Positions 10,277 to 28,909 of a stretch of 64,000 nucleotides of DNA are shown piece by piece. The DNA comes from Bacteroidales bacterium (GTDB taxonomy: Bacteria; Bacteroidota; Bacteroidia; Bacteroidales; UBA12077), in the NCBI GenBank assembly GCA_016342685.1, contig JAEINU010000005.1, positions 124,001 to 188,000 on the forward strand. The letters are read 5' to 3'. The notes under the pieces were generated by a model. It made no database searches. It was not told where the DNA came from and worked only from the letters and a program-made list of their open reading frames with translations. A program made the position numbers and the translations under genes. Each line of letters begins with the position of its first letter. Position 1 is the first letter of the stretch.

Positions 10277-11485
10277 ATGGAAAGTATATTTCTTGTATGT
10301 ATAGGTATGTTGGTATTTATATTAGGTTCGTTACTTTTAAAATCTAACAAATCTACTTCAGATCATATAATTATTGTTTGGTCTGTTTTGGCCATCCTTT
10401 CTCAGCTAGGATTTTATTATGTTGCAACTGGCGAATATAAAGAACATCTTCGTTTTGCTCAATTTGTATTTGGAACACTATTGCTTCACGCTCCATTGCT
10501 TTATTTTTACGTGAGAATTCAGCTTGACTCAAGCTTCGTTTTTCGCTATAAAGACTTATTTCATTTAACACCATTGTTAATTTTTTACTTATTGCATATT
10601 CCTGAATTTTCTCAAAATGTAGGAATATCAATTTGTTCTAAACATTTTGGTTGTTATTTAAGCAATAAACCTTGCAGTATAGTTTATAATTTCTCCAAGA
10701 TAATGCTAAATTCATTCTATTTAATGTTATCATTTTTTACCTATCGAGATTTAAATAAACCTATCGAGAAAAGAAATGGCAGAGAGAAAGTAAATTTTTT
10801 ATGGGTTAAAATTTTATTATTTGTAGCATTTTCATTAAATATTTTTATCATAGTTTATCGATTATTAGAAGTAGGTCAAATTCATATTTTCCCAGCAAAT
10901 ATATTTGTTTTAAACATTGTCTCTTCGTTATATATAATCGTATTTAGTTTTATTGGCAGCAATTTTACCGGATTATTAGACTTTATTAAGTTAGTAAGAA
11001 AAATTGGTGCATTTGTTCATTTGAAATTATCTTACCAATTAAATATAGATCAATCTGAAGATGATTATATCCCTGAATTGGATGAATGCCATAATGCTTT
11101 TGGCTTAAGTGAAATAGCAATAAAGGATTATATCGAAATAATAAATAAATTAATGAAAGACAAGAAACCTTTTCTTGATCAACATATAACTAGAGCTAAA
11201 TTTTCCGAACTAACATCTATTCCTTCCCATCATCTGGCATATGTAATTAAAGATAAGTTTGACCAAACATTTACAGATTTTGTTAATTCGTGGCGATTAG
11301 ACTTACTTCTTGAAAAATTGGACGAAACTAAGTATGAAAATTATACTTTGTTGGCTTTAGCTTTTGAATGCGGTTTTAATTCTAAATCTACTTTTAATAG
11401 ATATTTTAAGACTGATTTAGGTATGACTCCAACCGAATTTTTGAAAATGAAACAAGAAAATGTAGAAATAGAGTTGGCGCGTTAA
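10277..11485 (+). CDS. Membrane-anchored AraC-family transcriptional regulator
   Basis: A 402-aa protein with about seven hydrophobic helices in residues 1-230 (the first is ESIFLVCIGMLVFILGSLLL) followed by a cytoplasmic C-terminal AraC/XylS DNA-binding domain at about 300-395. The second helix-turn-helix carries the family signature (LALAFECGFNSKSTFNRYFK, then GMTPTEF). Such proteins sense a signal at the membrane and activate nearby genes without a separate kinase. It lies directly upstream of, and in the same direction as, the T9SS/TonB/polyferredoxin locus, separated from it by a strong terminator. That makes it the natural candidate regulator of the locus (inference). An inverted repeat sits in its leader. 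Confidence 0.85.
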   Translation: MESIFLVCIGMLVFILGSLLLKSNKSTSDHIIIVWSVLAILSQLGFYYVATGEYKEHLRFAQFVFGTLLLHAPLLYFYVRIQLDSSFVFRYKDLFHLTPLLIFYLLHIPEFSQNVGISICSKHFGCYLSNKPCSIVYNFSKIMLNSFYLMLSFFTYRDLNKPIEKRNGREKVNFLWVKILLFVAFSLNIFIIVYRLLEVGQIHIFPANIFVLNIVSSLYIIVFSFIGSNFTGLLDFIKLVRKIGAFVHLKLSYQLNIDQSEDDYIPELDECHNAFGLSEIAIKDYIEIINKLMKDKKPFLDQHITRAKFSELTSIPSHHLAYVIKDKFDQTFTDFVNSWRLDLLLEKLDETKYENYTLLALAFECGFNSKSTFNRYFKTDLGMTPTEFLKMKQENVEIELAR

Positions 11486-11540
11486 ATTGTTTATATACAA
11501 TTAATAAAGCGTATCAATTTTAAAATTGAAACCACAAAGT

Positions 11541-11572
11541 GCCCCTGATTTTTTTTCTGGGGCGTTTTTTTT
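11541..11572 (+). terminator. Rho-independent terminator after the AraC-type regulator
   Basis: GCCCC (11541-11545) pairs with GGGGC (11559-11563) around a T-rich loop and is followed by G and nine T. It separates the regulator transcript from the operon that starts at 11628. Confidence 0.82.
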
Positions 11573-11627
11573 TCAGGAAAAATCTTTATTAGCAAATAAT
11601 TTTAATTGTAAAACAAAAAATTAGCCT

Positions 11628-14585
11628 ATGAAAAATTTTACGTTAACACTATTATGCTTATTAACCTTCTCTGGAATGTTAATGGCACAATGGCAACCTG
11701 TCGATTTAGGAACAGGTACTACATTGAAGAATCTTTATGCCTTCGATAATCAAAATGCAATAATTGTTGGCGCAGATACAACTATCTTAAAAACTACCGA
11801 TGGGGGAAAAGTTTGGGAGACAATGAATTTTACATTGCCTAATAAGATTGACTATGATTTTACAGAAGTTGATTTTGCTGATAACCAAACAGGATTTATA
11901 GTTGCACCAAAAAAGTATATAAAACCAGATCACTATAATGGTTTTATGCTTAAAACTGCTGATGGAGGAACTACATGGGACGAAGTTTCATTAACTGCTT
12001 TTTCTGATGGTTCTGGTAATGATTTAACTGATCCTAAAGCTGGGATTAAAGTTCAGTTTCGTTGTGTTAGTATAAATGGAAATATTGGATATGCTGCTGT
12101 GCAATGGGTTGAAGCTGCTACTACAACAGAGCATGGATATATTTTTAAAACAACTGATAAAGGAACAACTTGGGCAATTTCAAGTGGAGATTTAGGAGGT
12201 ATAGATATTAATTCAATTGAATTTATTGGAGAAACAGTTTATGCTGGTGGAAATGGAAGTTACTTTAGTAAATCTATTGATGGAGGAGCCAATTGGGAAG
12301 ACCTGTCTAAAGGGAATATTGTATTTGTAAGTGATATTAGATTATTGGATGCTAATAAAGTTTATTTAGCTACAATGCAAGGTACATTATATACAGAAGA
12401 TGGTGGGGTAAACATCAATGCTCTTAATGATATAGGTGCTTGGGATGTAATATATTTTTCAGATGATAATATTTTATTTGCAGGTAACGGGAATGCATCA
12501 TCCACTAAAAAAAGTTATAGAAGTATTGACGGTGGAACTAGTTGGCAGGAAGCTACTAATGGACTAAATATTACTGCTTGGGATTTAACCCTTTTTAATG
12601 ATACTATTTATGCATTAGGTAATGGGGGTGTTGTTAATAAACTAAACCCTAGTGAATTAAAAGATCCTGTTATTGAATTCTCTCAAATATTAAAAGGTGG
12701 CGAAGCACAATTTGCTAACGAAAGCGAAAATTGTGGAAGTTACACATGGAAATTTACTGCTGATAGTACTTCAACAATTGAAAATCCTGTATATCGTTTT
12801 GCCGATTACGATGCTCATACAATTAAATTGATTGGTGAAAATGCAGTAAGTAGCGATTCTATTGAACATGAAATTACTGTTCAAGCTCCTACAGCCGATT
12901 TTACATTTGTTACTGAGGATGGTAATAATGTAGAATTTACAAACACAAGTGAAAATTGTGCTGAGTTCGAATGGAACTTTGGTGAGTTGTCTGTATCAAA
13001 AGATGAACTTGTTACATCACATGTATTCTCAACTCTTGGAACTTTTACAGTTAAACTAACTGCCGACAATTATATCGAAACCGTTTCGGTAGAAAAGGAA
13101 ATTACAATTGATTCAGTTGGAGCATATTGGTCGAAAAATCAATTAGAAATTGATCAAAACTTACAAAAGATGCACGTTTTCAACAATGATATTGCTATTG
13201 CGGTTGGAAATGGAACTACAATTATCAAATCAACTGATGGTGGAGATACTTGGACAGAAAAAACTTTCCCTTCAGAATTGGATGGTCATGTAGTTAATGA
13301 TATTGTTTTCTTTGATGACAATACAGGTTTAATTAGTGCATCGGCAGCTTCAATAGTTAACGGATTTATGTTAAAGACTGTGGATAAAGGTGAAAACTGG
13401 ACTGAAATTGCTTTAAGTGCTTTTTCTGATGGTTCTGGTGATGAAACAATTGATCCAGCAGCGGGTATTAAAGTATATTTCTATTCAATACATCAAATTG
13501 ACGAAAATGTAGCTTTTGTTGCAGTTCGTTGGCAAGATGCTAGTAGTGCTTATCATGGATTTGTTTACAAAACATCCGATAAAGGAGAAACTTGGGCAAA
13601 ATCAAGTAATGATATTTACCAGGAAAATACCTACAAATCTACAATTACAGATATGACTTTTTCTCCTGATGGAACAATTGGATTTATTGCGGGTAATAAG
13701 CTCTTATTAAAAACTTCTGATAGTGGTGCTACTTGGACTAGAGTTACTGGTGATGATGCATTTGGTTACATTACAGAAATGTTGGTGCTTGACAATAATA
13801 CTATTATTGCTTCAACAGGTAATGGTGTTTTAAAAACTACTGATTGTTTTGCTAACTACGAATTCAAAACTACTGATTACTCATTTGATATTATTCAGTT
13901 AGGAGATGATAAATTCATGGCTGGTAAAAATGCGGCAACACTTGGTGTTACTGAAGATTTTGCCGAAACTTGGGAGAATATGGGTAATGGTTTGTCTGGA
14001 ACATTCTTTGAGTTAACGGTATTTAACAATAAGATTTATGCTTTTTCTTCTAAGGGATTAACATCGATTAGTTACTTAGATAATTATGAAACTCCTACAG
14101 TAGATTTCGAATCTAGTATTGAAGATTTAACTGTAACATTTACAGATAAATCAGAGAGCATAATTGCAAGCAATTGGAGCTTTGGAGATACTGAAAACAG
14201 TACAGAAGTAAGTCCTGTTCACACTTATGCCGACTATGGTAAGTATGAAATTACATTAACAGGAAATAATCTTTGTAAAAAAGTATCGGTAACCAAAGAA
14301 ATTGAATTAACAAAATCTACAGGAATTGATAATTTGAATGAATCTTCAATTAATGTTTATCCAAATCCTGTTACAAATAATAAAGTATTCATTGAGTTAG
14401 GTAATTCTTACGAAGGTGATGTAAATATTGAAATTTATAATACAGAAGGACGTCTGATTGTTTCTGAAAAACAAAAGGCTACTTCATTATTAGAACTGAA
14501 CGTTGATTTAAATAAAGGATTTTACTTTATGAAAATCAATAATAATAAAGGTTTTAATAAAACAACAAAATTGATTGTTCAATAA
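11628..14585 (+). CDS. T9SS-exported beta-propeller (BNR/Ycf48-like) and PKD-domain protein
   Basis: A 985-aa secreted protein. The signal peptide is the first 20 residues (ends LMAQ). Two propeller-like blocks of sialidase-type repeats each show KTTDGG..W or similar motifs (KTTDGGKVW, KTADGGTTW, KTTDKGTTW, KSTDGGDTW, KTSDKGETW). The blocks occupy roughly 20-345 and 500-815 and resemble each other, including a shared AFSDGSG segment, so they arose by internal duplication. PKD-type domains follow each block (about 350-490 and 825-895; note FEWNFGE and SNWSFGDTENS). The C-terminus is a type A T9SS sorting domain (INVYPNPVTNN onward). No catalytic Asp/Arg/Tyr set of a true sialidase is evident, so a binding role is likelier. 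It opens the accessory locus and is followed by a hairpin that may reduce transcription of the receptor gene. Confidence 0.82.
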   Translation: MKNFTLTLLCLLTFSGMLMAQWQPVDLGTGTTLKNLYAFDNQNAIIVGADTTILKTTDGGKVWETMNFTLPNKIDYDFTEVDFADNQTGFIVAPKKYIKPDHYNGFMLKTADGGTTWDEVSLTAFSDGSGNDLTDPKAGIKVQFRCVSINGNIGYAAVQWVEAATTTEHGYIFKTTDKGTTWAISSGDLGGIDINSIEFIGETVYAGGNGSYFSKSIDGGANWEDLSKGNIVFVSDIRLLDANKVYLATMQGTLYTEDGGVNINALNDIGAWDVIYFSDDNILFAGNGNASSTKKSYRSIDGGTSWQEATNGLNITAWDLTLFNDTIYALGNGGVVNKLNPSELKDPVIEFSQILKGGEAQFANESENCGSYTWKFTADSTSTIENPVYRFADYDAHTIKLIGENAVSSDSIEHEITVQAPTADFTFVTEDGNNVEFTNTSENCAEFEWNFGELSVSKDELVTSHVFSTLGTFTVKLTADNYIETVSVEKEITIDSVGAYWSKNQLEIDQNLQKMHVFNNDIAIAVGNGTTIIKSTDGGDTWTEKTFPSELDGHVVNDIVFFDDNTGLISASAASIVNGFMLKTVDKGENWTEIALSAFSDGSGDETIDPAAGIKVYFYSIHQIDENVAFVAVRWQDASSAYHGFVYKTSDKGETWAKSSNDIYQENTYKSTITDMTFSPDGTIGFIAGNKLLLKTSDSGATWTRVTGDDAFGYITEMLVLDNNTIIASTGNGVLKTTDCFANYEFKTTDYSFDIIQLGDDKFMAGKNAATLGVTEDFAETWENMGNGLSGTFFELTVFNNKIYAFSSKGLTSISYLDNYETPTVDFESSIEDLTVTFTDKSESIIASNWSFGDTENSTEVSPVHTYADYGKYEITLTGNNLCKKVSVTKEIELTKSTGIDNLNESSINVYPNPVTNNKVFIELGNSYEGDVNIEIYNTEGRLIVSEKQKATSLLELNVDLNKGFYFMKINNNKGFNKTTKLIVQ

Positions 14586-14593
14586 ACTTTAAG

Positions 14594-14641
14594 TTAAGTT
14601 GCAGGTGCGGTTTAATGCCCGCCTTGCAACTTAAATTTTTT
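14594..14641 (+). terminator. Intergenic hairpin with U-run directly before the TonB receptor gene
   Basis: TTAAGTTGCA (14594-14603) pairs with TGCAACTTAA (14625-14634), with further pairing of the inner GCGG and CCCGCC segments, then a run of six T. It lies 15 bases before the receptor ATG with no room for a separate promoter. It therefore looks like a leaky terminator or mRNA-processing hairpin inside an operon rather than its end. Confidence 0.6.
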
Positions 14642-14655
14642 AAATAAAGAGAGTT

Positions 14656-17376
14656 ATGAGAAAGTTATTGGTCCAGTTATGTTTACTTGTAATCAGTTTA
14701 GGATTCACAACAGTAACATATGCGCAAGACAAAAACTTATGTGTTGTTAAGGGGGTAATTAGTGATCCAAATACCAAAGAATTATTATTTGGTGTTGTTG
14801 CTACTATTCCTGAAATAAATGTTTGGTTTTTTACAGGTGATAAGGGAGAGTACGTTTTGGAGAATATTCCTGCAGGAAAACACACCATTTATTACAAAAG
14901 AATGGGACTTAAGGATAGAATTATTGAGGTAGATTTAAAGCCGGGCGAAGTAAAGGTTATGGATGTTAATATGGTTTATCTTTCTCTGGCAATTGATGAG
15001 ATTGTAATTACTGCTAAGGAAAATCCGAATCAGTTATCAACTTCCTCATTAATTGAAACTCAAGCAATAGAACATATCCAGGCAAGTAGTTTGGGTGATA
15101 TTATGCAATTACTTCCAGGTCAGGCTATCGAAAATCCTGACTTAAATACGAAAAATCAGGCAAACCTAAGAAGTTCTACTTCTGATTCTGATAATGAAAA
15201 AATTGACGCATTGGGAACTTCCGTTATTATGGATGGAGCACCAATGTCGAACAATGCGAATTTACAAGTAACAAATACAGCGCAAATTGGCGCAGAAGGG
15301 CTTTTTTCCACGGTTAGTGGAGGGGGAGTTGATTTAAGGCAAATCCCAACAGATAATATTGAGTCGGTTGAAATAATTAGAGGTATTCCATCGGTAAAAC
15401 ATGGCGATTTAACCTCTGGAGCTATTATAGTAACTACCAAAGCGGGGGTTACTCCATTTATTGGTCGAATAAAATTAAACCCAAATACAAAGCAGGCTTA
15501 TTTAGGAAAAGGGGTAAAGCTAAAAGGAAATAGAGGAAGCATAAATGTCGATTTTGATTATGCTTATTCTCAATCCGATGTTCGATTAGCAAGCCCTAGT
15601 TACAATCGAATAAACGGAAAACTTACCTATAGCAATAACTTATTCGATCAAAAACTATATACAACAACGAAATTATCGGTTTTTAGAACCAACGATCAGG
15701 ATCGTGAAAAAGACGGAAGCTCACTTGAGAAAAGATATTCCGAAGATATGGGTTTACGATTTACTACATCAGGTAAACTAAGATTAAAAAAGAAACTCTC
15801 GAATTGTATTAATTACAACTTAACGGTTGATTATAAAGATCAAGAATCGTATACGCGTTTGTTAAAATCAGAAAGTATTACGCCATTGGCAAATTCATTA
15901 ACAAATGACACGTACGAAGCAATTTTCTTGCCATCTGAGTATTATACCGGATATTACATCGATGGAAATCCATTTAATTTATTTGCCAGCGTTGATAATA
16001 AATTTCATTTTCAAGCAGGACCATTTCATAATAAAATAATGGCTGGTATTGATTATACTATTGATGCCAACTGGGGTGATGGGAAATACTTCGATGATAA
16101 TTATTATTCAACATCATCTTTACGTCCTGTTTCATTTAAGGATTATCCTGCTTTACATCAGCTATCGTATTACATTGAGGATATGATTCGAACAAAAGTA
16201 TTTTCGAAAACCTTAAAAATACAAGCTGGACTTCGATTCGATAATATACAACCAGAAAATCCTATAAAAGGTAAATTTGGACAAGTTCTTTTACCACGTA
16301 TTAATTTAACATATCATATTCTTGATAACCTTACTTTACGGGGTGGATATGGAAAGACTTCAAAATCACCTAGCTTAATCTATTTATATTCCGATCCTGC
16401 TTATTTCGATGCTCAGAGTTATAATATGTATTCTGGTTTATATCCCGATGAAAGTTTAGCAGTTATCACAACAAAGGTTTTTCAACCTGATAATTCACAA
16501 ATGCGCCCGTCTGAAATGACAAAATATGAAGGCGGATTCTGTTATAAAATAAAAAAGAATGTAATTAATGTTACTGCTTATAACGAGCTATTGGAAGGTG
16601 GATATAGTTTTAAAGATATATTAGCAGTTACACCATATCCTTTATACGATCTTTATAGTTATACTCCAGGTTTAGGCGATCAACCTATACTGGATTACAA
16701 TAATGTTGATACAGCAATTTTACGAAGCAGTTATAAAATACCTGTTAATACAAAAGAAATAAAACGTAAAGGTGTCGAGATGTCTATCAATACACAACGA
16801 ATTAAAGGTTTAGGAACATCATTTAACTTTAGTGGTGCATGGAGTTTGACCGAATCTTCAGATGAAATGAGTGATATCTTTATGGGTAGTCAGTATTTTT
16901 TTGGTAATGACGAAAAACATATTGGTATTTATGAGTCGAACGGATTTAGCTCTGAAAATCTAACAACAACATTACGAATAATTCAACATATTCCGAAATT
17001 GCAGTTTGTAGCTTCCTTGGCAATTCAGACTCAATGGATTCAAAAACAAAAATCAATTATTAACAACCAATTTCCTGTCGGATATATCGATAGCGATGGA
17101 ATTGAGCACAGTTTAACAGCAACAGAAGCACATTCGGATCAGTATTCATATTTAGTGAGAAGTTTCGATGACACTTATTTTATGGAATCTGAAAGACCTG
17201 TAGTATGGCATATGAGTTTGAAATTAACAAAAGAATTAAAGAACGATTTAAGTTTTTCATTCTATGCAAACAATATGTTTATGAATCACCCAAAATATAA
17301 AAACTACAAAACTGGTAAGATCGATAAACTTAATCCATCCTTGTTTTTTGGTGCCGAACTCAATTTTAAACTATAA
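14656..17376 (+). CDS. TonB-dependent outer-membrane receptor
   Basis: A 906-aa outer-membrane transporter. The signal peptide ends near residue 24 (TVTYAQ). Residues about 28-110 form a carboxypeptidase-regulatory-like beta sandwich (VVKGVISDPNTKELLFGVVA), common in Bacteroidota receptors. The plug domain follows at about 120-265 (SSLGDIMQLLPGQ, then VSGGGVDLRQIPTDNIESVEIIRGIPSVKHGDLTSGAIIVTT), then a 22-strand-type barrel to the C-terminal Phe-Lys-Leu. It is shorter than most SusC proteins and has no SusD next to it; a DUF4876-like lipoprotein takes that place 11 bases downstream. Ligand is not readable from sequence. The polyferredoxin at the end of the locus makes a metal or metal complex the most reasonable guess (inference). 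Confidence 0.88.
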   Translation: MRKLLVQLCLLVISLGFTTVTYAQDKNLCVVKGVISDPNTKELLFGVVATIPEINVWFFTGDKGEYVLENIPAGKHTIYYKRMGLKDRIIEVDLKPGEVKVMDVNMVYLSLAIDEIVITAKENPNQLSTSSLIETQAIEHIQASSLGDIMQLLPGQAIENPDLNTKNQANLRSSTSDSDNEKIDALGTSVIMDGAPMSNNANLQVTNTAQIGAEGLFSTVSGGGVDLRQIPTDNIESVEIIRGIPSVKHGDLTSGAIIVTTKAGVTPFIGRIKLNPNTKQAYLGKGVKLKGNRGSINVDFDYAYSQSDVRLASPSYNRINGKLTYSNNLFDQKLYTTTKLSVFRTNDQDREKDGSSLEKRYSEDMGLRFTTSGKLRLKKKLSNCINYNLTVDYKDQESYTRLLKSESITPLANSLTNDTYEAIFLPSEYYTGYYIDGNPFNLFASVDNKFHFQAGPFHNKIMAGIDYTIDANWGDGKYFDDNYYSTSSLRPVSFKDYPALHQLSYYIEDMIRTKVFSKTLKIQAGLRFDNIQPENPIKGKFGQVLLPRINLTYHILDNLTLRGGYGKTSKSPSLIYLYSDPAYFDAQSYNMYSGLYPDESLAVITTKVFQPDNSQMRPSEMTKYEGGFCYKIKKNVINVTAYNELLEGGYSFKDILAVTPYPLYDLYSYTPGLGDQPILDYNNVDTAILRSSYKIPVNTKEIKRKGVEMSINTQRIKGLGTSFNFSGAWSLTESSDEMSDIFMGSQYFFGNDEKHIGIYESNGFSSENLTTTLRIIQHIPKLQFVASLAIQTQWIQKQKSIINNQFPVGYIDSDGIEHSLTATEAHSDQYSYLVRSFDDTYFMESERPVVWHMSLKLTKELKNDLSFSFYANNMFMNHPKYKNYKTGKIDKLNPSLFFGAELNFKL

Positions 17377-17387
17377 AGCTTTAAATT

Positions 17388-18623
17388 ATGAAATTTAATA
17401 TAAGTCTGATTTCTATTATTTGTATTCTCACCATTTTATTTGCGTGCGAAGATGATATGTATGATAAAGAAGCTAAGCTCTTTACAGTAGATATACAAGT
17501 AAATTACCCAGTTCATTACAATGTTTCTGAAGCCAACGAGGTTTCTGTACGATTAATAAATATCGAAAATGGATTGTGTGTAAATGAGGTAACGGCTCAA
17601 ACTGGAAAAGTTACTTTTGAAAATGTTAAGAAAGGTGCCTATCGAATATCATGCGGAAAGAAAATCCCTGCAGCTTTGGCAGTTACGTATGGCGAAACGA
17701 TAGTTAATCAGGAAGACATTGATGATGGTCGTTTGGTTAATCTGAATGCAACTATTGAGGATTTAAAATTAGGTGAGACTGCTGATTTAGGGGTGTTAAA
17801 TTTAAAATCTTCTTTACCTGGGACTTATTTAATCAAGGAGGTATATTATACTGGATCAATAACGCCTAACGAAAGAGCATATTATGCCGATCATTTTGTT
17901 GAGATTTTTAACAATACCGATAAAGTGATTTTTGCTGATAGCTTATGCGTTGCAACAGTTTATGGACCAAATGGGAATACGGATTCAAGTCCAACCGAAT
18001 TTAGTATTGATCCCGAACATGTGTATCTAACTTTTGTTTGGATGGTTCCCGGAACAGGAAAACAGTATCCAATAATGCCTGGTAAAAGCATTATTATAGC
18101 CCAGGATGGAATAAATCACAGAGACGATCCAAATGGAAATCCTAACAGTATAGATCTTTCAGATGCTACATGGGAGACATTTTTATTGCGCGATATCCAA
18201 AAGGATATTGATGTGTCAGAAGTGCCAAATATGAAAGAGATTTTTACAAACCGACCTAATACGCATGATTGGATATTGCATAGTTATGGTTCTTCTATAG
18301 TAATTTTTAAATCATCAGATATTGAGAATTTAGAAGTAATTCCCGAACCTCAAAATACACAAGGTTATACTATAATGAAATTGCCTTCGAAAGATGTACT
18401 TGATGGATTTGAATCATTGGCATATGCCAATTCTGGAATATTTAAACGCATTCCAGAATCTTTAGATGCTGGTTTTATTTATTGCAACGGAATATTTAAT
18501 TCCGAAAGTTGTAGAAGAAAAGTTGAAGATGTTGTCGATGGAAGAATAATTCTGCAAGACACAAACAATTCTGGGGAAGACTTTGAAGTAATATCATTTC
18601 CTACACCTTATGAATTTGAATAG
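17388..18623 (+). CDS. Surface lipoprotein, DUF4876-like
   Basis: A 411-aa lipoprotein: signal peptide with lipobox Cys20 (LFAC) followed by EDD, an acidic export signal that places such proteins on the cell surface. The first 130 residues look like an Ig-like or carboxypeptidase-regulatory beta domain (GKVTFENVKKGAYRISC). From about 145 a second domain begins with GTYLIKEVYYTGSITPNERAYYADHFVEIFNNT, a pattern I recognise from DUF4876 proteins, related to lamin-tail-like folds. It sits 11 bases after the receptor and 16 before the barrel gene, so co-expression is very likely. By analogy with SusD it may be the receptor's ligand-binding lid (inference). No enzyme motif is seen. Confidence 0.7.
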   Translation: MKFNISLISIICILTILFACEDDMYDKEAKLFTVDIQVNYPVHYNVSEANEVSVRLINIENGLCVNEVTAQTGKVTFENVKKGAYRISCGKKIPAALAVTYGETIVNQEDIDDGRLVNLNATIEDLKLGETADLGVLNLKSSLPGTYLIKEVYYTGSITPNERAYYADHFVEIFNNTDKVIFADSLCVATVYGPNGNTDSSPTEFSIDPEHVYLTFVWMVPGTGKQYPIMPGKSIIIAQDGINHRDDPNGNPNSIDLSDATWETFLLRDIQKDIDVSEVPNMKEIFTNRPNTHDWILHSYGSSIVIFKSSDIENLEVIPEPQNTQGYTIMKLPSKDVLDGFESLAYANSGIFKRIPESLDAGFIYCNGIFNSESCRRKVEDVVDGRIILQDTNNSGEDFEVISFPTPYEFE

Positions 18624-18639
18624 TTAAAGAATCGAAAAT

Positions 18640-20223
18640 ATGAAAATGAATAATATAAAAATTGCGTGTTGTTTGGTTTTGAGTATGGCAATAACTGGCC
18701 TAAGCAATAAAATAATTGCACAAAACCAGAACGATTCAATAAAAACTATAACAAATAGTATTAGCGAAGATTATACCTTACAACAAAATTTATGGATGAA
18801 TACTGTAAATGCAACGGGTTTAAGTATTGATACAATTGAGGATTATGGTCATTTGTTTTTTGCTGGAAGTTATAAAGATTCTAAATACAAAACTACATAC
18901 AATCCCGATAAACAAACGGTTTATGGAATGAATGCATATGGTTATAAAGCTTTAGATAAACTTTTCTTGCAAGGTGGATTTTCGTACTACAGATCCGATG
19001 AGGATAATATTGATTGGTCTTTACAAATGGATCCTGAAAGAGATTGCCCATTTATTCTTGCGGATTCTATTGGTGGTGATTGGAAAAAGGATTATTATAA
19101 ATTAAATATGAATGCAGCCACAATTCCGGTTTTTGGTTTTATTCGATTTGGTGTTGGAATTGATTACAATGTATCGAGTGGAGGAAGAGATAATGACCCA
19201 AGACCAAAAGCAACAGTTAAAGATTTAAGAATCCGCCCAGCAATTAGTTTTGATTTAAACGAGAAAAATAATCTGGGATTTTCGTATTTGTATGGCGATT
19301 ATCGACAAGATATCAATGTAATGAATAAATACGGTGTTGGAGGTTCAACTACATACAAAATATTAGGATTAGCTCTAAAAGAAAAACCAATAACTGAACC
19401 AAGTATTAAATATAGAATAGATCGTTGGGAAAATGGCGTTGCTATGCAGTATGGGCATAGGGGCAATAAAATGAGCTATATTACCGAGTTTAAATACAAG
19501 CTATCAACGGAAAAGGGGATCGATGATCCATACAAGAGTAGCGAAGATCTTGTGGATGGAATAATTCATTCTACGCCAGATGTAGATTATAAATATGCAG
19601 AGAACCAATATGGTTTTTATGGAGCGATAAGCATAAAAGGTAACAACCTGCATGTTGTAAAGCTTAATGCCGATTATTACGATGGTAAAATTTATAATAT
19701 GTCAACACAGCAGGTGGAGTTAAAGAATAATAAACTAGATGCATCTGTTGCATATGTTTTATTTACAGCGCCTGCTAATATCGATAAAAGAAGTAAGTTC
19801 TTATTTAATGTAAACTATAAAAATTCAGAAAATGAGAATTTATTTTATGCAATTCAAACGATTGAAAAGATAAATTTTGAATCATCTTATGAGAAGGCAT
19901 TGCTTCTTTTTGGTAAAAGATTTTCTGTAGACATAAAAGCACAATATTCACATAATTTAAATTCAGAATTAACAATTGATCCACAATCGGAATTTATTGA
20001 AGCAGAAACTGATATTACCGATCCATTTGTAATGTATAATTATGACTATTTAACGTCAAATTATATTAATGGTGGATTAGGTTTAAAATACTATAGTACA
20101 TTAAAAAGCAAAACAAACTATTATGTTGGGCTTAGAGCTGAAAGACTTCAGGTAATAAAATCTTCTCAATTTGAAAATGATGGTATTACATCTGTAGCTA
20201 TAAATATTGGAGTATTATTTTAG
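18640..20223 (+). CDS. Outer-membrane beta-barrel protein, DUF6850-like
   Basis: A 527-aa exported protein with an N-terminal signal peptide (first 28 residues, ending KIIAQ) and, from about residue 65 onward, alternating polar/hydrophobic strands typical of a transmembrane barrel, ending in VAINIGVLF with a C-terminal Phe. The pattern fits the family I know as DUF6850, often found next to DUF4876 lipoproteins and TonB receptors. There is no plug domain, so it is not a TonB receptor itself. It lies between the lipoprotein and the second T9SS protein with gaps of 16 and 20 bases. It could form a complex with the receptor or anchor the secreted propeller proteins (inference); no activity can be assigned. 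Confidence 0.65.
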   Translation: MKMNNIKIACCLVLSMAITGLSNKIIAQNQNDSIKTITNSISEDYTLQQNLWMNTVNATGLSIDTIEDYGHLFFAGSYKDSKYKTTYNPDKQTVYGMNAYGYKALDKLFLQGGFSYYRSDEDNIDWSLQMDPERDCPFILADSIGGDWKKDYYKLNMNAATIPVFGFIRFGVGIDYNVSSGGRDNDPRPKATVKDLRIRPAISFDLNEKNNLGFSYLYGDYRQDINVMNKYGVGGSTTYKILGLALKEKPITEPSIKYRIDRWENGVAMQYGHRGNKMSYITEFKYKLSTEKGIDDPYKSSEDLVDGIIHSTPDVDYKYAENQYGFYGAISIKGNNLHVVKLNADYYDGKIYNMSTQQVELKNNKLDASVAYVLFTAPANIDKRSKFLFNVNYKNSENENLFYAIQTIEKINFESSYEKALLLFGKRFSVDIKAQYSHNLNSELTIDPQSEFIEAETDITDPFVMYNYDYLTSNYINGGLGLKYYSTLKSKTNYYVGLRAERLQVIKSSQFENDGITSVAINIGVLF

Positions 20224-20243
20224 ATAACTAAATACAAAAAACT

Positions 20244-21935
20244 ATGAAGAAACTTTTACTATTAATTCTAACTGTTATATCGATAGATGTATCAGCGCAA
20301 ACGGTTGAGTGGGTTAAAACACTTGGCGGATCGGGCGATGATGAAGGTCATAAGTGTGCAGTAGATGCTTCGGGAAATTTCTTGTTTACCGGAACATTTA
20401 GTGAAACAATGGATTGGGGAGATGCGAATATTGTGAGCACTGGTAATCGTGATATGTTTCTAATAAAAACAGATAAAAACGGGAATGTTCTTTGGGGTAA
20501 AATGGCTGGAGGCGATTACAATCAATCAACATTAGGAAAAGCTGTTGCAACCGATGCAAATAACAATGTGTACGTAGGAGGAACTTTTACGGATACTTTA
20601 AATATTGAAACCCAGCAATTTATTGCAGAAAACGATTTAGACGAAACTCTATCCGATTGCTTTATTGCAAAGTATTCAGATCAAGGAAGCTTACTATGGG
20701 TAAAGATATTTTCTGGAGCAGCTGGAGATGTAATAGAAGAAATGAATATTCTTAACGACCAATTGGTTATTGTTGGTTCGTATAAAAAATCATTTAGCAT
20801 TCTTGGAACCACTTTTACATCCGACGATCCTAATGTTCAATCAAATTACAATCCTTTTATTGCAAGTTTAAATCTCGATGGTGAGTTAAATTGGGTAAGT
20901 AAAGTGAACTGTACCAATGGAACATGTCGTGCATTCGATATCGATAGCGAAGGAAATATAAATCTTTTACTTGAAGCAAAAGGAAGCATTGTTTTCAAAA
21001 GCGTTGGTTCAGGAACACAATATCCACTCAAGCAATCAAATGCAATGCAGGATAATTACATTGTTAAGTTAAAGGGAACCGACGGAAGTTTACTCTGGGG
21101 TAATCGATTAGGTAGTGCTAGCTACATTATGGGTTATGCTGTTGAAACCGATGCTTCAAATAATATTTATTGTGGTGGGTTATTTCAGGGAGAACTTAAA
21201 CTGGAAAGTTTAGATGGTAATTATCAAAAAGTGAATGCTGTAAATAAATTCGATTACTATGTATGTAAATACTCAAAAGATGGTAATTTATTATTCGTTG
21301 ATGCACAAGGCGGAAATTCAATCGAAGGAGCATTAGATATGATTGTTAATTCGAATGGAAGTTTATATGTTGCGGCTTATTTCTTAAAGCCCGAAACTAT
21401 TTTCCATGGAGAAACTTTTTCTTGCGAGGATGGAAACGAAGCTCTTCTAATTAAATATGATAATACAGGAGAAAATAGTTGGGTAAAACAGACAAGCACC
21501 ACAAAAAATTCTGGTTACATCTATTCAATGGAAATGGTATCGGAAGATAGCTTAATATTGCTTGGTCATTTTAAAGGCGATGGAACTTTCTTCGATGGAG
21601 AAACCTATTCAACACCTGATACCCTTAAAGATGTATGGTTTGCTTTAATGGCAGATCCAGAAACAGCACCGACAGGAATCAATGATTTAGATGATAAAAA
21701 TTCTGATATCTTGATTTATCCAGTTCCAGCCAATAATTATTTATATGTAAAAAGCCAAGAATATTCAGATCCGATACAATCGGTTGATGTATTCAATATT
21801 ATCGGCGAAAAAGTTTACAGCAGTCAGAATGGAGTTACTGAAATAGAGATCGGGCAGATTCCATCTGGAGTTTATTTTATTCAGGTAAAATCAAAATACA
21901 AACAAAAAACAAAGCAAATAATAATACAGCACTAG
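20244..21935 (+). CDS. T9SS-exported SBBP-repeat propeller protein
   Basis: A 563-aa secreted protein. The signal peptide is about 18 residues (ISIDVSAQ). The body contains SBBP-type beta-propeller repeats: segments such as GHKCAVDASGNFLFTGTF, AVATDANNNVYVGGTF and AVETDASNNIYCGGLF recur roughly every 50-60 residues, alternating with KTDKNGNVLW or KYSDQGSLLW. The C-terminal type A sorting domain starts near 485 (ILIYPVPANNYLYV) and ends KTKQIIIQH, so it is exported by T9SS. Like the first gene of this locus it is a repeat-rich surface protein with no visible catalytic site. Having two unrelated T9SS propellers flanking a TonB receptor set is unusual and suggests that extracellular binding belongs to the system (inference). 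Confidence 0.8.
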   Translation: MKKLLLLILTVISIDVSAQTVEWVKTLGGSGDDEGHKCAVDASGNFLFTGTFSETMDWGDANIVSTGNRDMFLIKTDKNGNVLWGKMAGGDYNQSTLGKAVATDANNNVYVGGTFTDTLNIETQQFIAENDLDETLSDCFIAKYSDQGSLLWVKIFSGAAGDVIEEMNILNDQLVIVGSYKKSFSILGTTFTSDDPNVQSNYNPFIASLNLDGELNWVSKVNCTNGTCRAFDIDSEGNINLLLEAKGSIVFKSVGSGTQYPLKQSNAMQDNYIVKLKGTDGSLLWGNRLGSASYIMGYAVETDASNNIYCGGLFQGELKLESLDGNYQKVNAVNKFDYYVCKYSKDGNLLFVDAQGGNSIEGALDMIVNSNGSLYVAAYFLKPETIFHGETFSCEDGNEALLIKYDNTGENSWVKQTSTTKNSGYIYSMEMVSEDSLILLGHFKGDGTFFDGETYSTPDTLKDVWFALMADPETAPTGINDLDDKNSDILIYPVPANNYLYVKSQEYSDPIQSVDVFNIIGEKVYSSQNGVTEIEIGQIPSGVYFIQVKSKYKQKTKQIIIQH

Positions 21936-21976
21936 AATAGTAAAAAAAACTATAAGGTCTTGTAAATAAAGGTTTA

Positions 21977-22017
21977 AGGATGTGAGTTTACTCACTGCCT
22001 TAGGGGATTAACATCCT
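21977..22017 (+). other. Structured intergenic hairpin before the polyferredoxin gene
   Basis: AGGATGT (21977-21983) pairs with ACATCCT (22011-22017). An inner hairpin GTGAG/CTCAC with loop TTTA competes for two of those bases. No long U-run follows (AAATTTAAAA), so it is not a convincing terminator. It could be an RNA stability or processing element, or a regulator site, in the 116-base gap before the 22052 gene. Confidence 0.45.
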
Positions 22018-22051
22018 AAATTTAAAATAAATAACATAAAATAAATGCACT

Positions 22052-23986
22052 ATGAAAAAAATGAAAATTAAGAATCCTTTAAGGTTAAGCCTGCAGGGAG
22101 CAATTGTAATCCTGTTAATGTACATGCTGGCAAAATGGGGTTTAGTAGAAAGTTATACTCCTGATTTTGAGGCGTATTGTCCATTTGGAGGTTTACAAGC
22201 TTTATCGAGCTATTTAGTTAGAGGTTCATTGGCTTGTTCAATGACAAGTGCTCAAATTATTATGGGTGTTACTTTATTGATCGGTGTAGTATTGTTCAGT
22301 AAATTATTTTGTGGATATATTTGCCCGCTTGGTACTTTTTCTGAATGGTTTGGAAAAATTGGTGATAAATATAAAGTAAGAAGAGACATCACTGGAATTT
22401 ACGATAAAGCATTACGTTCATTAAAGTATATACTTTTATTTACAACCTTTTATTTTACATTAGGTTCAAGTGAGTTGTTCTGTAAAAATTACGATCCGTT
22501 TTTTGCAACATTTACTTTATTTAGTGTTGATGTAACGGTATGGATGGCAATTTTATCAATTGTTATTTTAATTGGTGGCTCAATCTTTTTCAGATTATTC
22601 TGGTGTAAGTATTTATGTCCACTAGGAGCATTATCAAATATCTTCAAATTCTTCTTGGTATTTGTTGGTGTAATGGGTATTTACTTATTATTAGTTTTAG
22701 GATTCTCAATGGAGATTTCTTATGTATGGCCTTTAGCTATCATTACTATTCTTGGTTATATTCTTGAAGTTACTAAATTAAGAAGCAAACTTTTCCCATT
22801 ATTAAAAATTACAAGAAACGAAGATGTATGTAATTCTTGTCAATTATGTAATAAGTCTTGTCCTCAAGGAATAAAAATTACAGAATACAAAAAAGTTGAT
22901 CATGTTGACTGTAATATGTGCACAGAATGTTTAAATGTATGTCCTAAAGAAGGTGCATTAAGCATTAATAAAAAGTCTAAATTAAAATGGTTACCAGCTA
23001 CCTTAGTAATAATCTTGGTTATTGTTGGAGTTTATGTAGGTTCAACATTCCGTGTTGCAACAATTAATTTAAGATGGGCCGATGATGAAGCATTTAAAAC
23101 TGCTGAAGTTTATAAGCGTGAGGGAATTAAAAATATTAAATGTTATGGTAGTTCTATGGCTTTTGCGCGTCAAATGCGTGAAGTTAGAGGAACTTTAGGT
23201 GTTGAAACTTATACAGATAATAAATCTGTGAAAATATATTACAATCCAAAAGTTATTACTCATGATAAAATAACAGAAAAGATATTTTCAACTTCGAAAG
23301 TAACTATCGAAAAACCAGCGGTTGGAGATGAGATACAAGTAGTAGAATTAGGCTTGTTAGGTTTCTTTGATCAGTTTGATGCATATTATTTCAGACAATT
23401 GTTAATGCAATATGGCGATGTATATGGTTTTAGCACTAAATGGGGCGAACCAGTTCAAACAAAGGTTTATTTTAAAGCTAACAAACAAATTAATTTAGAA
23501 GAGATCGTTGAGTTGATTGAAAGCGAAACTCTAACTTATAAAGTAAAAGATACAGAGAAAACAGTATCTCTTAAATTTGAAGTAAGCGATATACAGAAAT
23601 TAACGGAAAATATTTCTTCCAATGATTTTAATAAAGTGATGTACAGCGAGTTTTTCAAAACATTTAACAATAGAGATCGTTATTTGAACGAAGAAGTTGG
23701 TGTTTTTAAAGCAGATTTTGAATTATTTGACAATACAACACCTTGGTTAGCTTATTTGCAAAATCATGTTTCAAAACAAGATACAGGTATTGTTGCGTTA
23801 CATTCAATGTTGGATGGAGAAAACCCAACTATTCAGCTAGATTTCATTAAAGAAATTACAAATCCTGAAAAAATTTGGGAAATGATTGATGTAGATTCTT
23901 TAGTTGTTCATTATAAAAATGGTAAAATTAAATCATTTGCAAACCCTTTCTCTTTCATAAAAGAGGATTCCATAGCTAATAATTAG
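22052..23986 (+). CDS. Membrane polyferredoxin (NapH/NosR/CcoG-like) with C-terminal HMA-like folds
   Basis: A 644-aa inner-membrane redox protein. About six membrane helices span 10-240, with two CxxxCP motifs at membrane edges (Cys87/Cys91 and Cys185/Cys189) as in NapH and NosR. A two-cluster ferredoxin domain follows (Cys260, 263, 266, 270 and Cys287, 290, 293, 297), then another helix at about 312-330. The C-terminal 300 residues are unlike NapH. They contain two ferredoxin-fold segments resembling heavy-metal-associated domains (from about 361, ending GVETYTDNKSVKIYYNPKVIT; and about 425-490), but CYGSS replaces the CxxC metal site. A role in passing electrons from the cytoplasm to a periplasmic acceptor, perhaps reducing an imported metal, is inferred from the neighbours. 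A strong terminator follows. Confidence 0.78.
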   Translation: MKKMKIKNPLRLSLQGAIVILLMYMLAKWGLVESYTPDFEAYCPFGGLQALSSYLVRGSLACSMTSAQIIMGVTLLIGVVLFSKLFCGYICPLGTFSEWFGKIGDKYKVRRDITGIYDKALRSLKYILLFTTFYFTLGSSELFCKNYDPFFATFTLFSVDVTVWMAILSIVILIGGSIFFRLFWCKYLCPLGALSNIFKFFLVFVGVMGIYLLLVLGFSMEISYVWPLAIITILGYILEVTKLRSKLFPLLKITRNEDVCNSCQLCNKSCPQGIKITEYKKVDHVDCNMCTECLNVCPKEGALSINKKSKLKWLPATLVIILVIVGVYVGSTFRVATINLRWADDEAFKTAEVYKREGIKNIKCYGSSMAFARQMREVRGTLGVETYTDNKSVKIYYNPKVITHDKITEKIFSTSKVTIEKPAVGDEIQVVELGLLGFFDQFDAYYFRQLLMQYGDVYGFSTKWGEPVQTKVYFKANKQINLEEIVELIESETLTYKVKDTEKTVSLKFEVSDIQKLTENISSNDFNKVMYSEFFKTFNNRDRYLNEEVGVFKADFELFDNTTPWLAYLQNHVSKQDTGIVALHSMLDGENPTIQLDFIKEITNPEKIWEMIDVDSLVVHYKNGKIKSFANPFSFIKEDSIANN

Positions 23987-23995
23987 TATTCATTG

Positions 23996-24027
23996 GTCTC
24001 TGCAAATTTTATTTGCAGAGACTTTTT
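23996..24027 (+). terminator. Strong terminator after the polyferredoxin gene
   Basis: GTCTCTGCAAAT (23996-24007) and ATTTGCAGAGAC (24011-24022) form a perfect 12-bp stem with loop TTT, followed by five T. It ends only 13 bases before the ATG of the first S46 peptidase. Confidence 0.88.
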
Positions 24028-24040
24028 ATAACAATTGAAT

Positions 24041-26212
24041 ATGATGAAAAAAGTAAAAAGTAAACTATTATTGATTGTACTTTCCTTGTGTATTTCATTT
24101 TATGCAAGTGCCGATGAGGGAATGTGGCTTTTATCATTATTAAATGAGATAAACTATAACACAATTCAGGATAAAGGCATGCAGCTTAGTCTCGAAGAAC
24201 TATATAGTATCGATAAGCTAAGCTTAAAAGATGCAATTGTTGCTATCGATGGTGGTTCTTGTACGGGTTCTTTGGTTTCCGAAAATGGTTTAATGATAAC
24301 AAATCATCATTGTGGATATTCCGAAATACAGGAACATAGCTCACTTGAAAACGATTACCTAAAAGATGGTTTTTGGGCTCATTCTTTAAAAGAAGAATTA
24401 CCTAATCCTGGCAAATCAGTTTCATTTCTGATCGATGTAAAAGATATTACAGATCGAGTAAATGAAATGAAGGCCGAACAAATAAAAAAAGGAGCTGAAC
24501 GACCTAACATGATGAGAATTCGACGACTTATTTCTCGCGAAACAGTTAAAGGAACTCATTATAATGCAGAAGTACATGCTATGTTTGGTGGAAATAGTTA
24601 TTATCTTTTTACTTACGAAACATACAGTGATGTGCGTTTAGTTGGAGCTCCACCATCGGCTATTGGAAATTTTGGTGGTGAAACTGATAACTGGATGTGG
24701 CCGCGTCATACCGCCGATTTTACATTCTTCAGAATATATACCGGTCCTGATGGCAAGCCTGCCAAATATTCACCGGAAAATATACCTTTAAAACCTAAAA
24801 AATATTTAAAGATGAATGCAACGGGAGTTAATGAAAAAGACTTTGCATTTATCATGGGTTATCCTGGAAAAACGGATAGATATAACACCTCATATGGTAT
24901 TGAAGAAATCCTTAATATTAGCAATCCAATAAGTATTGTTATGAGAGGTAAAAAATTAGAAATTATTCGCAAAGCAATGAATGAAAGCGATGAAGTAAGA
25001 ATAAAATATGCTTCAAAATTTGCTGGCTTAAGTAATTATTGGAAATATGGAATTGGACAGAGCGAATGTTTGAAAAAATATAACACCATTGAAGATAAAC
25101 AAACCCTTGAAAATCAATTTGCATCATGGGTAAAATCAAATAACGAATTAAATAATGAGTATGGTAATGTTTTAAGCTCTATTTCTGAAGCTTACAAAAA
25201 TAAAGCAAATCTTACTTCAGCAATTAAGTATTATAACGAGGCAATCCTGATGGGACCAGAAATTATAAACTTTTCGAATCGTTTAAATCGCTTAAAAAAA
25301 TCTATTGAATCGAAAAAATATGATGAGCAGAAGCTTCAAAAATCTGTTGAATCATTATTAAAGAGATACCAATCCGCATATAAAGATTATGATGTAAAAG
25401 TAGATAAACAAATTTTTGAAGTTTTACTCCAGGATTTTGTTGAGAATATCGATAAGCAATATTTGAATAAAGATTTTATTGCTGTTGCCGAAAAATATAA
25501 CTGGGACATGACCGCTTTGGCAAATGATATTTATTCTAATTCAATTTTTACTGATTATCAAAAAGTTAAAAATTATTTAGAAAGTTTAAATATCAACTCT
25601 GTAATATCTGATCCTGCAATGGAAGTTGCTGTTCCATTAATGACAGGAGTATTTTCTTTAAATACTGAAAAAGGTAATTACAGGCGAATAATTGCAAGCT
25701 CAAATAAGTTATTTATTAAGGGTTTAATGGAAATGAATCCAGAAAAGGACTTTTATCCTAATGCGAATTCTACCATGCGACTTACATATGGAAAGGTTAG
25801 TGGTTATGAAGCTAGCGATGCAGTTACATTTAATTACTATACAACGATCGATGGTGTAATGGAAAAATATAATTCCAAGCTACCTGAATATGAAATTCCA
25901 GAAAAGTTAAAATCATTATACGAATCAAAAGATTTTGGTACATATCAAACCGATGGGACAATAAGAACCTGTTTCTTAACCGACCTTGATATTACTGGTG
26001 GTAACTCTGGAAGTCCAGTTTTAAACTCAAAAGGCGAGCTAGTTGGTTTAGCTTTTGATGGAAATTGGGAAGCAATGAGTAGCGATATTGATTTTATCCC
26101 CGAAAAACAGAAGTGCATTAATGCCGATATTAGATATGTACTATTTATTATCGATAAATTTGCAGATTGTCAATATATAATGAACGAATTAAACATAATA
26201 ACAAAAGATTAG
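24041..26212 (+). CDS. S46 family dipeptidyl-peptidase (DPP7-type by specificity residue)
   Basis: Periplasmic serine exopeptidase that releases dipeptides from the N-terminus of oligopeptides. The signal peptide ends at about FYASA, and the mature enzyme begins with the family hallmark DEGMWLLSLL. The catalytic His is in MITNHHCGY, the Asp in the TDNWMWPRHTADF region, and the nucleophile is the first Ser of GGNSGSPVLN. Eighteen residues after that Ser stands Gly (AFDGNW), the residue linked to DPP7-like preference for hydrophobic or broad P1 residues rather than acidic ones. I start it at the ATG at 24041; the frame opens six bases earlier at TTG. A second S46 gene follows after four bases, so this is a tandem pair. 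Length (about 723 aa) is normal. Confidence 0.93.
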   Translation: MMKKVKSKLLLIVLSLCISFYASADEGMWLLSLLNEINYNTIQDKGMQLSLEELYSIDKLSLKDAIVAIDGGSCTGSLVSENGLMITNHHCGYSEIQEHSSLENDYLKDGFWAHSLKEELPNPGKSVSFLIDVKDITDRVNEMKAEQIKKGAERPNMMRIRRLISRETVKGTHYNAEVHAMFGGNSYYLFTYETYSDVRLVGAPPSAIGNFGGETDNWMWPRHTADFTFFRIYTGPDGKPAKYSPENIPLKPKKYLKMNATGVNEKDFAFIMGYPGKTDRYNTSYGIEEILNISNPISIVMRGKKLEIIRKAMNESDEVRIKYASKFAGLSNYWKYGIGQSECLKKYNTIEDKQTLENQFASWVKSNNELNNEYGNVLSSISEAYKNKANLTSAIKYYNEAILMGPEIINFSNRLNRLKKSIESKKYDEQKLQKSVESLLKRYQSAYKDYDVKVDKQIFEVLLQDFVENIDKQYLNKDFIAVAEKYNWDMTALANDIYSNSIFTDYQKVKNYLESLNINSVISDPAMEVAVPLMTGVFSLNTEKGNYRRIIASSNKLFIKGLMEMNPEKDFYPNANSTMRLTYGKVSGYEASDAVTFNYYTTIDGVMEKYNSKLPEYEIPEKLKSLYESKDFGTYQTDGTIRTCFLTDLDITGGNSGSPVLNSKGELVGLAFDGNWEAMSSDIDFIPEKQKCINADIRYVLFIIDKFADCQYIMNELNIITKD

Positions 26213-28408: not shown

Positions 28409-28909
28409 ATGTATTATTTCGATTATATAGTTATGCCTGAAAAGAAGTTAATTATTGAACATTTTTCAGGGGAAATTAATCTCGGGATTATTCTAAAACA
28501 GAAATACAGGGAGAGTATTGATACAAAGTATAATCGAAACTATAATGTAATTAATGATTCAAGAAACGCAGTGTTTTTTTTAAATTCTGATGATATTAAA
28601 AATTATGTTGATCATATCAGAAACAATGAATTACTTAACAGGGAAAGAAATGTAGCATTTCTAACAAAAACTCCTAATCAGGTGGTTATAGCAACTTTAT
28701 TTAAGGAGCTTAAAAAGGAACTGCCTATTAATGTTAGTATTGTTAGTACTCTGAATGCAGCTCTTCGGGGAGTGGAGCTGCTTTCAGATGAAAATAAATT
28801 GGTAAAATTTAATTTAAACAAATTAAAAAATCAGAGTTGTAAATACAATATCAAACAAATAAATAATGATGAAAAAATATATATTAATAGTATTTGTACT
28901 AGTAATTAA
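28409..28909 (+). CDS. Small conserved-looking cytoplasmic protein, possible STAS/SpoIIAA-like fold
   Basis: A 166-aa protein with no signal peptide. The pattern YFDYIVMPEKKLIIEHFSGE, then NYNVINDSRNAVF, then RERNVAFLTKTPNQVVIATLF and VSIVSTLNAALRGVELL resembles a SpoIIAA/STAS-like alternating beta-alpha fold seen in many uncharacterised Bacteroidota proteins. This is a pattern judgement only. The C-terminal 30 residues are lysine- and asparagine-rich and overlap the start of the downstream M16 peptidase gene by 44 bases in another frame. The overlap suggests coupled translation, or that the true C-terminus evolved late. Neighbours are all exported peptidases, which does not explain a cytoplasmic partner. 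An internal Met at residue 9 is an alternative start. Confidence 0.6.
   Translation: MYYFDYIVMPEKKLIIEHFSGEINLGIILKQKYRESIDTKYNRNYNVINDSRNAVFFLNSDDIKNYVDHIRNNELLNRERNVAFLTKTPNQVVIATLFKELKKELPINVSIVSTLNAALRGVELLSDENKLVKFNLNKLKNQSCKYNIKQINNDEKIYINSICTSN

Follow-up and report, generated by a model that had tools for sequence, protein, structure and literature searches.

The window analyzed here, a stretch of 64,000 nucleotides from a Bacteroidales bacterium (assembly GCA_016342685.1, contig JAEINU010000005.1), contained one variant of a modular gene system whose constant part encodes a TonB-dependent receptor, a DUF4876 lipoprotein and a DUF6850 protein. These three genes form a phylum-wide core, and peptidase and polyferredoxin genes are repeatedly linked to it. 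With a probability of about 0.5, we read the whole as a TonB-powered iron-acquisition system of Bacteroidota, in which the DUF4876 protein would capture the ligand, peptidases would strip it and the polyferredoxin would reduce the released metal. The cargo may be iron or haem bound to a protein or peptide. Iron as the metal is partly supported, through analogy with relatives only, and the cargo, the order of steps, the topology and the direction of electron flow proposed below are those we infer.

Six co-directional open reading frames, all on the forward strand and separated by gaps of 70, 11, 16, 20 and 116 bases, made up the cluster at 11628–23986, and open reading frames and Pfam matches bore out the six genes, their placement and the 11–116 base gaps given in the original prediction. 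Two secreted repeat proteins had been expected, and both carried a Por_Secre_tail domain. The first (11628..14585) was a T9SS-secreted BNR-type propeller protein with a PKD domain (PSII_BNR 1e-33, Por_Secre_tail 2e-13), and the second (20244..21935) was a T9SS-secreted SBBP-like propeller protein (Por_Secre_tail 7e-10) whose Pfam SBBP propeller match and NCBIfam SBBP lipoprotein match (3e-20) were both below cut-off. Between them were the TonB-dependent receptor (14656..17376; TonB barrel 2e-17, Plug 6e-10, CarbopepD_reg_2 1e-8) and, assigned to the same families as predicted, the DUF4876 lipoprotein (17388..18623; 2e-35) and the DUF6850 protein (18640..20223; 1e-69). The sixth gene (22052..23986) encoded a NapH/NosR-like membrane polyferredoxin, with a Fer4_5 match over cut-off (9e-12) and weaker 4Fe-4S matches. 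The Pfam and NCBIfam matches of the six genes included no SusD/RagB or glycan-active domain, as the prediction of a receptor without SusD and a set without glycan-active motifs had it, and no SusD/RagB was matched in the ten genes scanned. The lipobox cysteine (Cys20) of DUF4876 was kept by 98% of the 61 members aligned. The DUF6850 protein is probably an outer-membrane barrel, and 49 of 61 family members end in F, Y or W. Predicted structures of the DUF4876 protein and the polyferredoxin had mean pLDDT values of 35.5 and 41.0, with three sequences per alignment.

The membrane-anchored AraC-type regulator described upstream was also found (10277..11485, forward strand; HTH_18 1.3e-13), with a hydrophobic N-terminal half and five hydrophobic segments, and a copy 72% identical to it occupied the same place in locus L038. 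The gap between the regulator and the propeller gene contained a palindrome (11515–11528) and a GC-rich hairpin with a T-run from 11541, together spanning 11515..11573 on the forward strand and conserved with L038. The folding z-score for 11500–11600 was −2.1, and the hairpin was absent from the terminator-scan output; the element may act as an operator or terminator. An Rfam scan of 9900–32300 returned nothing at the gathering score. An E. coli-type Fur box was not enriched upstream of the loci (mean best mismatches 7.41 observed vs. 7.51 shuffled, 54 regions), with five of the 54 regions at p ≤ 0.05 when taken singly.

To the 3′ side, further genes lay past the boundary that the original prediction had drawn at 23986. 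Two S46 dipeptidyl peptidase genes (24035..26212, Peptidase_S46 6e-231; 26217..28376, 7e-227), both with the NHHC and GNSGSP motifs, and a full-length PqqL/FusC-like M16 metallopeptidase gene (28866..31673, HFLEH at residue 79) followed on the same strand and had been left out; as these peptidases adjoin the cluster, both its boundaries and its likely cargo need revising. The first S46 gene started 48 bases past the polyferredoxin gene. A 166-aa open reading frame of unclear family (28409..28909, forward strand) overlapped the M16 start by 44 bases; it had no family match over cut-off and had a 54% identical copy in L038. A third S46 gene lay on the opposite strand (32240–34396), convergent with the cluster, making three S46 genes within about 10 kb.

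The core was examined in 60 loci, the window and 59 fetched neighborhoods. In 56 of them, the receptor, DUF4876 and DUF6850 genes adjoined one another in this order, allowing for a doubled DUF4876 gene. Two of the four exceptions were cut by contig ends (L041, L073), one had ABC genes in between (L088), and one was without a recognizable TonB receptor or DUF4876 (L045). DUF6850 matches over cut-off were present in 14 of 98 relatives and in 39 of 392 Bacteroidota genomes. Further matches over cut-off lay outside the 60 loci (G359:C49:27376, G313:C38:50197, G483:C48:322605, G372:C27, G173 and G290); G111 was added later as L136, and G159:C7:76893 lies inside L081 and was not counted apart. L042, L043, the window, L034 and L038 all belong to one genus. 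Among named control genomes, DUF6850 and DUF4876 both matched in one of 14, Bacteroides ihuae, and 40 control regions elsewhere on such contigs contained neither family. The polyferredoxin gene was in 10 of the 60 runs, so the DUF4876, DUF6850 and polyferredoxin trio co-occurs in other genomes and the objection anticipated in the original prediction, that it might not, falls away. The proposal of a six-gene system held for gene content but not as written, since the cluster is one version of a system built of modules around a core of three genes.

The polyferredoxin gene was linked to the core beyond these runs. At E ≤ 1e-40 it was detected in 13 of 392 genomes. Ten of the 13 contained DUF6850 (Fisher 5e-9), within 15 kb in nine; in G483, 39 kb separated the two genes. 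The profile (A1) was built from copies near the core, three candidates per genome were scored, and the test used 38 DUF6850 genomes, leaving out G173 (31 bits, over cut-off) and keeping the weak G290. Of the three genomes without DUF6850, G106 had the polyferredoxin gene beside ABC and DUF4857 genes, G132 had it beside those plus M16, PepSY and TonB receptor genes, and G269 beside none of the scored families. The gene was directly 3′ of an M16 gene, with a gap of about 30–112 bases, in G179, G132, G190, G159, G111, G444 and L040. Among named records, relatives were found at two loci only, L049 being the same stretch as L038.

The window polyferredoxin matched NapH (3e-11, 43.5 of 213 bits) and NosR (1e-12, 47 of 1000 bits), both below the curated cut-offs. 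Like these proteins, it has a membrane Fe-S core with a pair of 4Fe-4S cluster motifs, and it differs from them in scoring far below the cut-offs, having no FMN-binding domain among its listed matches and carrying a long C-terminal HMA-like region. A hydrophobicity scan gave six segments, to which a low-confidence model adds a further helix; the predicted topology would place the 4Fe-4S pair in the cytoplasm and the C-terminal 300 residues in the periplasm. The Fe-S cysteines were kept in 10 of 10 aligned polyferredoxins, as was the tail Cys364, within a KC[YF]GS motif. HMA matched four of the 10 family members (best 1e-4) and the MerTP model five (best 2e-9), with no HMA match listed for the window protein itself. 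A Foldseek search with the poor polyferredoxin model returned nothing at E ≤ 0.001; its top matches were ferredoxin-like folds (ACT, HMA), which we take as a hint only.

The window M16 protein matched the PDB entries 9ldy (M16 family, 6e-192), PqqL (2e-81) and FusC entry 6b03 (2e-42). Its gene was on the same strand as the receptor gene but beyond a hairpin and the two S46 genes. The subfamily is common anyway, being present in 132 of 392 genomes. In DUF6850 genomes, 15 of 26 listed M16 copies were no more than 15 kb from DUF6850, a fraction that leans high because the second copies of G159 and G483 and the copy of G173 were not included; the profile (A6) was built from copies near the core and two candidates per genome were scored. 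The genome to which the window belongs had two full-length matches of the PqqL/FusC-like kind, and these adjoined its two DUF6850 loci, the second match being 29% identical; other M16 relatives there matched only in part. That second, distant locus (L036, contig C8) has the receptor, DUF4876 and DUF6850 genes flanked by an M16 gene and two C25-like+HEAT proteins.

Gene order around the S46 genes was kept between lineages. L050 (Bacteroidales bacterium isolate Zod_Metabat.1203), whose polyferredoxin was 53% identical to that of the window, had the same order of T9SS BNR, TonB receptor, DUF4876, DUF6850, SBBP, polyferredoxin, S46 and S46; opposite-strand genes followed the second S46 gene, and its cluster was without M16. 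L040, from another family, had TonB receptor, DUF4876, DUF6850, M16, polyferredoxin and S46. A terminator-like 13-bp hairpin (23995..24023, forward strand; folding z −5.8) occupied the gap between the polyferredoxin and S46 genes. It was among seven terminator-like sites found by scan, which is no excess over the 6.7 in shuffles. A hairpin in this gap was also present in L049 and L050 and, by eye, in L040, with changes in sequence that kept the hairpin; only that of the window had a clear T-run. With this hairpin before S46 and no M16 in L050, the peptidases may not be co-transcribed with the core, and the S46 genes may form a separate transcript even though their position is kept.

Other modules varied beside the core and were counted with family HMMs built from these same loci. 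Of the 60 runs (same strand, gaps of up to 400 bases), T9SS BNR-type propellers were in 17, ABC ATPases in 13, C25-like+HEAT proteins and ABC permeases in 12 each, DUF4857 in 11, M16 in 10, MauG-type di-haem peroxidases and a family of ~300 aa in nine each, SBBP proteins in six, FecR in five, half-size M16 in four, and S46 and ECF sigma factors in three each. Of the 40 control regions, scored anywhere in the region at E ≤ 1e-30, four had T9SS BNR-type propellers, two each had TonB receptors, ECF and FecR, one each had ABC ATPase, SBBP and M16, and none had polyferredoxin, C25-like+HEAT, di-haem peroxidase (CCP), DUF4857, S46 or the other modules. At 1e-10, T9SS propellers were in eight control regions and TonB receptors in seven. 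Because propellers and regulators occur in the controls, their association with the core is less specific than that of the peptidases, DUF4857, the peroxidase and the polyferredoxin.

At least one peptidase was present in 21 of 60 same-strand runs vs. one of 40 control regions, and 30 of the 60 runs had neither a scored peptidase family nor a di-haem peroxidase. None of the nine peroxidase runs contained a peptidase, a separation confounded by lineage. The C25-like proteins kept HxHG and DxCxN in 14 of 14, which fits clan-CD cysteine peptidases, and one of two scanned had a Pfam C25 match below cut-off. M28 peptidases, which were not among the families scored in controls, occurred at L088 and L132. 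ChaN haem-binding proteins were found at L042 (Pfam) and L043 (HMM), in two genomes of the window's genus, and together with PepSY genes at four loci they favor the iron reading. At L029, a papain-like protein matched HmuY below threshold.

Published loci related by annotation, not by sequence comparison, respond to iron. Under 150 µM dipyridyl, PG1019–PG1022 of P. gingivalis rose 20.8–214.5-fold, BT3625–BT3633 of B. thetaiotaomicron 36.7–128-fold and BT1933–39 3.5–7.4-fold, according to PMC10434189. The first two loci have, as in the window, a TonB receptor next to one or more DUF4876 proteins, and BT3625–3633 also has ABC transporter, DUF4857 and PepSY (BT3628–3629) genes, which recur around the core here; they differ from the window in that the source's account of these loci names no polyferredoxin (PMC10434189). 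A comparison involving haemin gave a DUF4876 gene a log2 value of −5.42 (PMC10470040), and PG1019 was reported, along with HmuY, among the proteins or genes that changed (PMC12119571, PMC10101095). The original guess of a metal is strengthened by these iron-repressed TonB receptor and DUF4876 relatives and by the HMA/MerP-type matches of the polyferredoxin family, with iron itself pointed to through the relatives only. DUF6850 was not found by name in the literature searched, in which DUF4876 was named by three papers and DUF4857 by one, and the best matches listed for protease-associated import in Bacteroidota did not describe this system.

Xus and Fus are among the closest known systems. XusABC consists of a TonB receptor, a surface lipoprotein and XusC, a PepSY inner-membrane reductase, as PMC13142918 describes it. 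The window likewise has a receptor, an adjacent lipoprotein whose surface exposure is predicted, and an inner-membrane redox protein, but with DUF4876 and a polyferredoxin in place of XusB, a DUF4374 protein in a table of PMC10434189, and of the PepSY protein XusC. A Pfam scan of ten window genes matched neither DUF4374 nor PepSY, and the window adds the DUF6850 barrel and the T9SS proteins. In Fus-type clusters (FusA-FusC, YddB-PqqL), described for Proteobacteria in PMC6793856, TonB receptors occur with a FusC-like M16 peptidase or, in multiple cases without M16, with cytochrome c peroxidases, and protein import was suggested; the term "Bacteroidetes" is absent from the text of that paper. 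Among the 60 loci, too, some receptor genes stand near full-length M16 or, in several cases without it, near a cytochrome c peroxidase. The window differs in its other peptidase families, DUF4876 and DUF6850. As for the receptor, NCBIfam PqqU gave 15.5 bits against a cut-off of 1200, and FusA was not among the eight PDB chains matched. PqqU is the same protein as YddB. The window system resembles both Fus and Xus, yet by its receptor, lipoprotein or reductase it belongs to neither, and it differs from SusCD importers in that the ten genes scanned gave no match to a SusD/RagB lipoprotein.

Under the preferred reading, an iron-bearing ligand would be captured at the surface by the DUF4876 lipoprotein with the TonB receptor, much as by XusB with XusA, and the DUF6850 barrel would be the constant outer-membrane partner. 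Periplasmic peptidases whose genes adjoin the core (S46 and the PqqL/FusC-like M16 in the window) would strip the protein or peptide part. Electrons would pass from the cytoplasmic 4Fe-4S clusters through the polyferredoxin across the inner membrane to its periplasmic HMA-like domain, which would handle and reduce the released metal, so that the polyferredoxin may stand in the place of XusC. The sequence of events in the original prediction, from capture at the surface through TonB import to reduction at the inner membrane, would then apply at the window locus. A more specific version, which we offer tentatively, makes the core a separately evolved Bacteroidota counterpart of Fus-type iron piracy that would import an iron or haem protein or peptide whole and then cut it with a lineage-paired peptidase (M16, S46, C25-like or M28) or open it by a di-haem peroxidase, some lineages freeing the metal with a new Fe-S reductase ending in a periplasmic HMA-like domain. 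A peptidase neighbor is no proof of protein cargo, since E. coli PqqU, once regarded together with PqqL as a probable route of protein import, was shown to take up PQQ (PMC12124388).

A possible, though less probable, alternative is Xus-like import of haem or a small ferric chelate, in which the polyferredoxin replaces PepSY and the peptidases serve general protein nutrition separately. The composition of XusABC is consistent with it, as are the hairpin before S46 and the PepSY genes near the core at L030, L035, L052 and L084 (on the opposite strand at two of the four) and in BT3628–3629. The recurrence of unrelated peptidase families beside the core and the seven loci in which M16 and polyferredoxin are direct neighbors argue for the peptidases as part of the system. 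A system for a different metal, copper being the leading candidate, with handling by the HMA domain, is unlikely. The HMA/MerP-like C-terminus of polyferredoxin family members would suit it, as would the CobW-type GTPase at L076/L077 and the di-haem enzymes, three of which were tested and matched MauG and MbnH models, but with scores below the curated cut-offs. Copper HMA domains usually carry CxxC, whereas the polyferredoxin tail has one invariant cysteine, in the KC[YF]GS motif. Regulation measured in relatives was by iron or haemin (PMC10434189, PMC10470040). Very improbable is a RagAB/SusCD-like peptide-nutrition system with the polyferredoxin as an unrelated passenger: the S46 and M16 peptidases and the TonB receptor would fit, but no SusD/RagB is listed, the polyferredoxin linkage is far above chance, and the relatives respond to iron (PMC10434189).

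The iron-acquisition reading would join DUF4876, DUF6850 and the HMA-tailed polyferredoxin, which have no known function, with published iron-induced loci in one testable system that has a likely DUF6850 member in the laboratory species B. thetaiotaomicron. Should the cargo prove to be protein-bound iron, the import of whole proteins as a means of iron piracy would extend beyond Proteobacteria.

Several minor features were seen near the core in other lineages. The family of ~300 aa adjoined it at L062, L065, L066, L068, L069, L071, L072, L073 and L075, and the one member tested had no Pfam or NCBIfam match. A small lipoprotein-like gene lay downstream of the core at L041 (5489–6055), L044 and L052; the L041 protein was rich in His over one stretch and matched DUF4920 below threshold, and the L052 member matched an OB-fold below threshold. 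At L076 and L077, the CobW-type GTPase and ABC transporter genes were near the core, past one opposite-strand gene, a hint that the metal in that genus may be zinc or cobalt. ECF and FecR genes were upstream of the TonB receptor at L081, L084 and L089, and FecR at L088 and L090, a different regulator from the AraC type of the window.
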